Shown: positions 58,264 through 61,140 of the stretch, piece by piece
How positions within the stretch are numbered: position 1 is the first letter of the stretch
Layout: every line of letters starts with the position of its first letter
Assembly: GCF_016756615.1 (NCBI RefSeq)
Contig: NZ_AP023262.1
Span: forward strand, 7,627,501-7,691,500
DNA: 64,000 nucleotides
From: Mesorhizobium sp. L-8-3
Lineage (GTDB): Bacteria; Pseudomonadota; Alphaproteobacteria; Rhizobiales; Rhizobiaceae
Direction of reading: 5' to 3'
The notes under the pieces: model-generated
The model's input: only the letters and a program-made list of their open reading frames with translations
Databases searched by the model: none
What the model was told of the DNA's origin: nothing
Program-made: the position numbers and the translations under genes

Positions 58264-60069
58264 TCAATGATTGTCGCGCGGCACGCCCTTGCCCTGACGC
58301 GCGACACGCTGGTACTTCAGCGCGGGCTTCAGCACCATGCCTTCGGAGAGCTGGTCGACCATGCCGCGCTGGATCTCCTGCCACGGCGTCTGGTGCGCCG
58401 GGTAGCGATAGCCGCCCTCGTTCTGGAGATCGGCGCGACGACGGGTGAGTTCGTCGTCCGTGACGAGCATGTCGGCACGGCCTTTCCTGAGATCGATGCG
58501 CACGCGGTCTCCCGTCTTCAGGAGCGCGAGCCCGCCGCCGGCGGCCGCTTCCGGCGAGGCGTTGAGGATGGACGGGCTGCCCGAGGTGCCGGACTGGCGC
58601 CCGTCCCCGATGCAGGGCAGCGATTTGACGCCACGCTGGATGAGGGCGGCCGGCGGCTGCATGTTGACCACCTCCGCAGCCCCGGGGTGGCCGATCGGCC
58701 CGGCGCCACGCATGAACAGGATCGTGTGTTCGTCGATGCCGAGCGATGGATCCTCGATCCGGGCGTGATAGTCCTCGCGCCCGTCGAAGACCACCGCCTT
58801 GCCCTCGAAGGCTTCGGGATCGCGCGGGTCGGACAGATAGCGCTCGCGGAACTCTGTCGAGATCACGCTGGTCTTCATGATGGCGGAATCGAAGAGGTTG
58901 CCCTTCAGGTTGATGAAGCCGGCATCGACCTTGATCGGCTCGGCCGCGGGAAGGATGACCTCGGCATTGGTGCTCGCCGCATCACGGCAGTTCTCCGCGA
59001 TGGTGCGGCCATTGACCGTCCTGGCATCCGGGTGAGGCAGCAGGCCGGCCTTCAGCAGTTCGGCGACGACCGCGGGGACGCCGCCGGCGCGATAGAAATC
59101 CTCGCCGAGATAGGCGCCGGCCGGCTGCATGTTGACCAGCAGCGGAATGCGGTGGCCGACCGCCTGCCAGTCGTCATTGTCGAGCGAAACGCCGAGATGG
59201 CGGGCGACGGCGTTGAGGTGGATCGGCGCATTGGTGGAGCCGCCGATCGCCGAATTGACGACGATGGCGTTCTCGAAGGCCTCTCGCGTCATGATGTCGG
59301 ACGGCCTAATCTCCTCATGCACCATTTCGACGATGCGGCGGCCGGTGTCGTAGGCCATCTGTCCGCGTTCGCGATAGGGCGCGGGGATGGCGGCCGAACC
59401 CGGAAGCTGCATGCCGAGCGCCTCGGCCAGCGAATTCATGGTCGAGGCCGTGCCCATCGTGTTGCAATAGCCGACCGACGGCGCCGAGGCCGTGACGGCC
59501 GCCATGAAACCTTCCGCGTCGATCTCGCCGGCCGCCAAGCGCTCGCGCGACTTCCAGACGATGGTGCCGGAGCCGATGCGTTCGTTGCCCTGCCAGCCGT
59601 TGAGCATCGGGCCGACGGAAAAGGCGATGGCCGGAATGTCGACCGTCGCCGCCGCCATGAGCAATGCCGGCGTGGTCTTGTCGCAGCCGATGGTCAGCAC
59701 CACGCCGTCGAGCGGATAGCCGTATAGCACCTCGACCAGCGAAAGATAAGCGAGGTTGCGGTCGAGCGAGGCGGTCGGACGCTTGCCCGATTCCTGGATC
59801 GGGTGGCACGGAAATTCGAACGGAATGCCGCCCGCCGCCTCGATGCCGGCACGCACGCGCCTGGCGAGCTCGATATGGTGACGGTTGCAGGGGGACAGGT
59901 CCGATCCCGTCTGGGCGATGCCGATGATCGGCTTGCCGGACTGCAACTCGCCGCGCGTCAGGCCGTAGTTGAGATAGCGCTCGATATAGAGCGCGGTCAT
60001 CTCGGGATCGTCCGGATTGTCGAACCACTCCCGCGACCTGAGCTTCTTTGGCTGCTTTGAACCGGACAT
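58264..60069 (-). CDS. IlvD/Edd family sugar-acid dehydratase
   Basis: A 601-residue Fe-S dehydratase. The three cluster Cys are visible in [22 protein letters not shown] and [10 protein letters not shown]; the active-site Ser region is seen as [17 protein letters not shown]. Length and sequence match the pentonate dehydratases (L-arabonate/D-xylonate type) rather than biosynthetic IlvD. They remove water from a sugar acid to give a 2-keto-3-deoxy acid. ATG 60069 has GGAGGG five bases upstream; the longer frame upstream is an artefact of the tandem repeat. No aldolase or transporter of the same pathway lies beside it. Confidence 0.93.
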
Positions 60070-60165
60070 ATGGCCCTCCAGGAATCCGACCCGCATGGTT
60101 AGGCCAACGGCCGGTCGGCGGCAAGTGGGGCTTGCCCTATTTGTCCGACAAATAGCATGCTTCTC

Positions 60166-60418
60166 TGGTGCGTCCTTCGAGGCTCGCTGCGCTCGCACCT
60201 CAGGATGAGGGAGGCTGGCACTACACACCCAGGACAAGCGAGGCTGGCACGACACACCCAAGACAAGTGAGGCTGGCACTACACACCCAGGACAAGCGAG
60301 GCTGGCACGACACACCCAGGACAAGTGAAGCTGGCACTACGCACCTCAGAACGAGGAAGGCGGGCACTACGCCCCTCATCCTGAGGTGCGAGCGCAGCGA
60401 GCCTCGAAGGACGCACCA
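60166..60418. repeat. Composite repeat: 44-bp inverted repeats around 29-bp tandem units
   Basis: Perfect 44-base inverted repeats (60166-60209 and 60375-60418) enclose five 29-base tandem units (60211, 60240, 60269, 60298, 60327) and a partial sixth. Units 1 and 3 are identical; units 2 and 4 differ by one base from each other and share two variants that separate them from 1 and 3. This gives a 58-base higher-order period. Unit 5 is more diverged. There are no spacers, so it is not a CRISPR array. It fills the divergent region between the dehydratase and the CoxG-like gene. Confidence 0.95.
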
Positions 60419-60539
60419 TGTACCGGACGCCTTGATGCTCCCGCCGATCCAGAAGGCGAGACCGATCCAGCACTTTGGTGCGATGGACAAGGCCGACGTG
60501 TTTCGCTACGCCTCCAAGATGCTAGTGGAGGAATTCGGC

Positions 60540-60992
60540 ATGGCTCTGGTCATCGAAGGCGAGGAACGGATCGCGGCACCCGTGCAGAAAGTCTGGGAAG
60601 CTCTGAACGATCCGGACGTGCTCAAGGACTGCATCCCCGGATGCCAGAGCCTGGAGAAGAAGTCCGACACCGATCTGGCGGCGACCGTGGTGCTCAAGAT
60701 CGGGCCGATCAAGGCGACCTTCAACGGCGAGGTGACGCTGAAGAACCTCAACCCGCCGCATTCCTATACCATCGCGGGCGAAGGCAAGGGCGGTATCGCA
60801 GGCTTCGCCAAGGGCGGCGCCGACGTGACGCTGACGCCCGATGGGGAGGACACGACGGTGCTGACCTATGCCGCCAAGGCCGATGTCGGCGGCAAGATCG
60901 CCCAGCTCGGCAGCCGGCTGATCACCTCGACGTCGAAGAAGCTGGCGGGACAGTTCTTCTCGAGCTTCAACGAGCGGGTGAGTCAATCGTGA
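60540..60992 (+). CDS. CoxG-like SRPBCC domain protein
   Basis: A 150-residue protein of the carbon monoxide dehydrogenase subunit G type (SRPBCC fold): IEGEERIAAPVQKVWEALND, VLKDCIPGCQSLEK, and AGFAKGGADVTL with the conserved C-terminal FFSSFNERV. CoxG helps to mature or anchor Mo hydroxylases, but most family members stand, as here, without cox genes. ATG 60540 follows GGAGG by eight bases. The stop TGA (60990-60992) is the first three bases of a heptamer array. Confidence 0.9.
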   Translation: MALVIEGEERIAAPVQKVWEALNDPDVLKDCIPGCQSLEKKSDTDLAATVVLKIGPIKATFNGEVTLKNLNPPHSYTIAGEGKGGIAGFAKGGADVTLTPDGEDTTVLTYAAKADVGGKIAQLGSRLITSTSKKLAGQFFSSFNERVSQS

Positions 60993-61052
60993 ATGGTGAA
61001 TGGTGAATGGTGAATGGTGAATGGTGAATGGTGAATGGTGAATGGTGAATGG
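60990..61052. repeat. Heptanucleotide array with an inverted counterpart
   Basis: Nine perfect copies of TGAATGG begin with the CoxG stop codon. About 55 bases later, 61107-61135 holds three copies of the reverse complement CCATTCA and one degenerate copy. The two arrays could fold into a long hairpin between convergent genes, which would act as a two-way terminator. Copy number is likely to vary between strains. Confidence 0.95.
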
Positions 61053-61140
61053 TAGGAAAGATCAGCGGCGGCTCATCGAAAGTGCCATGCCATGAAATTT
61101 TTGTGACCATTCACCATTTTACCATTCACCATTCACCGTC

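Follow-up and report, generated by a model that had tools for sequence, protein, structure and literature searches.

The window analyzed here is a 64,000-nucleotide stretch of DNA from Mesorhizobium sp. L-8-3 (positions 7627501-7691500 of the 8.45-Mb single-contig genome), and it carries a palindromic element with a tandem array between two divergently transcribed genes. The product of the gene on the right is putatively CoxG-like. The genes and the conserved upstream block are as follows (positions within the window):

58264-60069, minus strand: dihydroxy-acid dehydratase family gene, left neighbor, diverging
60471-60489, plus strand: block CACTTTGGTGCGATGGACA, promoter-like, conserved among relatives in front of the CoxG-like gene and intact despite the element
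60540-60992, plus strand: gene for a small CoxG-like/SRPBCC-type protein, right neighbor, with a weak NCBIfam match only

The original prediction placed the element in a promoter region. The two flanking genes are indeed divergent, but the element is located upstream of the CACTTTGGTGCGATGGACA block, which is itself undisturbed. A perfect 19-nt palindrome, CTATTTGTCcGACAAATAG, occupies positions 60137-60155, 10 nt to the left of the element. In relatives, the similar sequence ATTTGTnnGACAAAT adjoins the dehydratase start; thus, CTATTTGTCcGACAAATAG looks like an operator, which is farther from its gene here. To the right of the element, a heptamer array (AATGGTG, 9.9 copies, 60985-61053) starts where the CoxG-like gene ends, and the heptamer recurs in inverted orientation at about 61106-61138, before the end of a converging ApbC/Mrp-type gene. 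Together these form a long hairpin between the converging CoxG-like and ApbC/Mrp-type genes.

The insertion site was compared in 80 fetched relatives, 76 of which have the divergent dehydratase/CoxG-like pair. The element is absent from the site in all 76 syntenic relatives, with no arm core between the two genes. The spacer between the genes is 470 nt in the window compared to a median of 151 nt in relatives, and after subtraction of the 253-nt element it is still about 65 nt longer than theirs. Because the spacer of the relatives is too diverged, no exact insertion junction or target-site duplication is readable. In three relatives (L077, L084, and L140; two labeled Mesorhizobium soli and one M. 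albiziae), the same spacer is about 1 kb instead of about 150 nt.

The element consists of two inverted arms with 161 nt in between, and the tandem units start inside the left arm:

60166-60211, plus strand: left arm of 46 nt, a perfect inverted match to the right arm and an imperfect palindrome in itself
60194-60223, plus strand: unit W0, 30 nt, the left arm's inner end plus AGGCTGGCACTA, founder-like
60224-60252, plus strand: unit W1, type A, 29 nt
60253-60281, plus strand: unit W2, type B, 29 nt
60282-60310, plus strand: unit W3, type A, 29 nt, identical to W1
60311-60339, plus strand: unit W4, type B, 29 nt, 2 differences from W2
60340-60369, plus strand: unit W5, 30 nt, counterpart by position and sequence of the closing unit in copy G000:C1:152110-152332
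60373-60418, minus strand: right arm, 46 nt

The arms had been claimed to be perfect inverted repeats of 44 bp; they are perfect, but slightly longer at 46 nt. Each is predicted to fold as an imperfect palindrome, and the element has terminal inverted repeats, as MITEs do. Identity with the CcrM-site repeats (CIR) was rejected, GANTC being absent from the element. Both the arms and the array are beyond chance expectation: the arm core has 2 matches compared to 0.03 expected, and the 20-nt unit core (up to 3 mismatches) has 5 compared to 0.01 expected.

The span 60194-60369 is fully accounted for by six contiguous units (30, 29, 29, 29, 29, and 30 nt), and Tandem Repeats Finder reports a period of 29 with 6.0 copies (score 227) at 60196-60370. 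The final 18 nt of the left arm also belong to unit W0; the unit therefore combines the arm's inner end (CGCACCTCAGGATGAGGG) with roughly 12 further nt (AGGCTGGCACTA). The loop is filled in tandem with 29-base units, as had been claimed, but not from a foreign source, since the units copy the inner end of the arm. The claimed A-B-A-B alternation describes the middle four units, but not W0 and W5, which differ. Any A/B pair has 3 differences, compared to none between the type A units and 2 between the type B units. Two of the four variable columns in W1-W4 separate W1 and W3 from W2 and W4, the other two are singletons, and no other split is backed; within the array itself, the 58-nt register rests on only these two informative columns. 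In a self-repetition test, the window element was the strongest of 87 long elements, and none of 60 shuffles reached its value. This test used single-base shuffles, and part of the 87-element sample was chosen because it looked tandem, so the figure of 28 tandem loops among the 87 overstates their share, and only the strongest cases are used here.

About 25 arm sites were located elsewhere in the 8.45-Mb genome, a count obtained by BLAST alone. Besides the window element, four complete elements carry the array (genome positions):

152110-152332 (G000:C1): array element, 5 units
7816021-7816241 (G000:C1): array element, 5 units
111577-111739 (G000:C1): array element, 3 units
466265-466423: array element, 3 units

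The copy at 152110-152332 has its opening and closing units in common with the window element (scores of 28 for the opening and 21 for the closing unit, out of about 30), and strong position-by-position homology between the two arrays is limited to these end units. Its central part contains a single A-type unit, with C at site 16 and G at site 28, and directly after it a single B-type unit, with T at both sites. Because this copy has a single adjacent A-B pair, the A-B-A-B order of the window element is best read as a 58-nt duplication of A-B, and the proposed 58-base register is backed by both the variable columns and this paralogue. Neighboring units E3_1 and E3_2 of the copy at 7816021-7816241 show a difference of only one base, and their near-identity suggests a separate 29-nt duplication. 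Comparison of the five elements suggests that a form already carrying the array spread to several sites, with local changes afterward. The outer flanks are alike (GARTGTCAGCCCC...) in L002, L003, and L004, which are the copies at 152110-152332, 7816021-7816241, and 111577-111739, and this flank is absent at the window copy; the element may thus reach past the arms at those three copies.

The arms are present in 85 of 297 sampled Rhizobiaceae genomes and in 45 of 109 genera, which agrees with the claim that they match a widespread rhizobial interspersed element. Paired arms with short loops are common, and longer loops of many lengths also occur. The minimal form totals about 106 bp and is made of a 46-50-nt core plus 29-nt outer arm parts. 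Most long loops have no clear tandem structure and contain other sequence, which is often palindromic. Clear tandem loops in other genera were found in L229 (best lag 20), L239 (33), and L198 (57), and since the unit lengths of these arrays (about 20, 33, and 57 nt) differ from that of the window element, tandem loop growth seems to be recurrent. With tandem forms in this genome and in other genera, their absence elsewhere, which the original prediction had named as grounds for abandoning it, is not what was found. The loop at L198:1442-1662 (genome G016) shows another style of expansion, with an arm-like core in each of its tandem units of about 57 nt.

Several families of palindromic repeats are relevant for comparison. 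RIME elements are dispersed intergenic elements of Rhizobiaceae, mosaic in structure, with a minimal form of about 106-108 bp and two large palindromes. Two of these, RIME1 and RIME2, were reportedly described by Osteras et al. in 1995 as rhizobium-specific intergenic mosaic elements. Their description is not known to include tandem arrays in the loop. The elements reported here likewise have multiple dispersed copies in Rhizobiaceae, and their minimal unit, close to 108 bp, contains two large palindromes, each arm being an imperfect one. Size, palindromes, and host range thus fit the description of RIME elements. When S. meliloti pSymB was searched with the minimal element, the best match was only 15 bases. 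No arm core was found in the chvI-chvG spacers of 20 fetched genomes, none of them shown as Sinorhizobium, and one match with 3 mismatches was found elsewhere.

BOX elements of Streptococcus pneumoniae have boxA and boxC ends around a variable number of tandem boxB modules, and longer arrays vary more between strains (PMC3049150). The number of tandem modules between the ends varies across sites here as well, the five elements having 3, 3, 5, 5, and 6 units. However, BOX belongs to another phylum and has another sequence, while the window element has ends that are perfect inverted copies of each other and a tandem unit derived from the arm, so BOX is the closest analogue in structure only. CGTC-tagged REP repeats are palindromic and alphaproteobacterial, are mainly head-to-head dimers with variable spacers, and have no known transposase (PMC3733652). 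The present elements resemble them in being alphaproteobacterial palindromic repeats in head-to-head pairs with variable spacers. Membership was rejected: the definition requires an unpaired CGTC tag, an 8-9-bp stem, and a 4-5-nt loop (PMC3733652), whereas CGTCCT in the arm pairs with AGGATG, leaving no unpaired tag, and the arm is longer. REPINs are paired inverted REPs that form a non-autonomous mobile unit mobilized by RAYTs (PMC3116915), and paired inverted repeats as such a unit are a point of likeness. Mobilization by a RAYT was rejected here, because a search of this genome for a mobilizing enzyme found no complete Y1-type transposase, only partial Y1_Tnp matches (48, 35, and 23 of 121 positions). 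Brucella, a related group, has the repeated palindromic elements Bru-RS1 and Bru-RS2 of 103 and 106 bp (PMC10800456), which by description are similar in size and palindromic repeat nature.

The regular 29-nt spacing of the units might suggest a foreign insert, either a separate minisatellite or a CRISPR-like array, that landed by chance in the loop. Yet the first unit overlaps the arm, the arm's inner sequence is common to the units, the units are contiguous without spacers, and a search with the array only gave no good match outside the Mesorhizobium sp. L-8-3 genome. A foreign or CRISPR-like array was rejected on the basis that unit W0 is part of the arm, and we consider such an insert extremely improbable. 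The array could also be a functional cis-regulatory element with repeated regulator-binding sites between the dehydratase and CoxG-like genes, given its divergent intergenic location beside the perfect palindrome CTATTTGTCcGACAAATAG and the conserved promoter-like block. However, these units are also present at four further places in the genome, the element is missing in every syntenic relative even though both genes are kept, and the arm's CCTCAGGATGAGG palindrome is lost from the middle units, so the presumed regulator site is not preserved. A regulatory role of this kind is very unlikely.

A processed RNA or a bidirectional terminator or insulator, kept for transcript stability, is suggested by the perfect 46-bp stem and the predicted fold energy of -149 kcal/mol for the entire element, and transcriptional activity has been reported for 26 REP elements in S. 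meliloti (PMC2873474). Any perfect inverted repeat folds likewise, and stability alone is therefore no evidence of selection. Moreover, the element precedes both genes instead of following them, and an Rfam search of it returned no family at the cut-off, only sub-threshold models that were mostly microRNA hairpins. Retention for this purpose appears quite unlikely. Given the high stability of the predicted fold, read-through transcription may be affected; if transcribed, the hairpin could act as a terminator or insulator between the divergent pair.

The arms, units, paralogues, empty sites, and recurrence in other genera are direct observations, and we consider it probable that the window element is a non-autonomous, dispersed rhizobial palindromic element of the RIME/REP-dimer kind with a tandem loop derived from its own arm, grown by slippage and without essential function. 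This kind of element is already known, and the loop built of self-copies is a variant. The element, with two inverted and imperfectly palindromic arms of about 45 nt around a variable loop, would have entered the spacer of the dehydratase/CoxG-like pair in the Mesorhizobium sp. L-8-3 lineage. Within this genome, one sublineage of the element may have undergone tandem duplication of the inner 30 nt or so of one arm inside the loop, and the array probably predates the spread of copies. Later changes would be specific to the site, with a 58-nt (A-B) duplication in the window and a 29-nt duplication at 7816021. The copying could have resulted from replication slippage or from template switching at a fork stalled by the hairpin, and an enzyme acting in trans may have mediated the spread. 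The window element most likely is neutral and would have no essential function. A broader proposal is that tandem copying of the inner ends is driven, repeatedly and independently of lineage, by the hairpin arms themselves; the family would then keep giving rise to new arrays of variable number at dispersed intergenic positions throughout the Rhizobiaceae. We regard this as rather unlikely.

Little is learned about gene function from the window element. It clearly illustrates the origin of a minisatellite from one end of a dispersed palindromic element. Because a single genome contains paralogues at several stages and other genera contain independent cases, the order of events can be read, and the array loci are candidate loci for strain typing.
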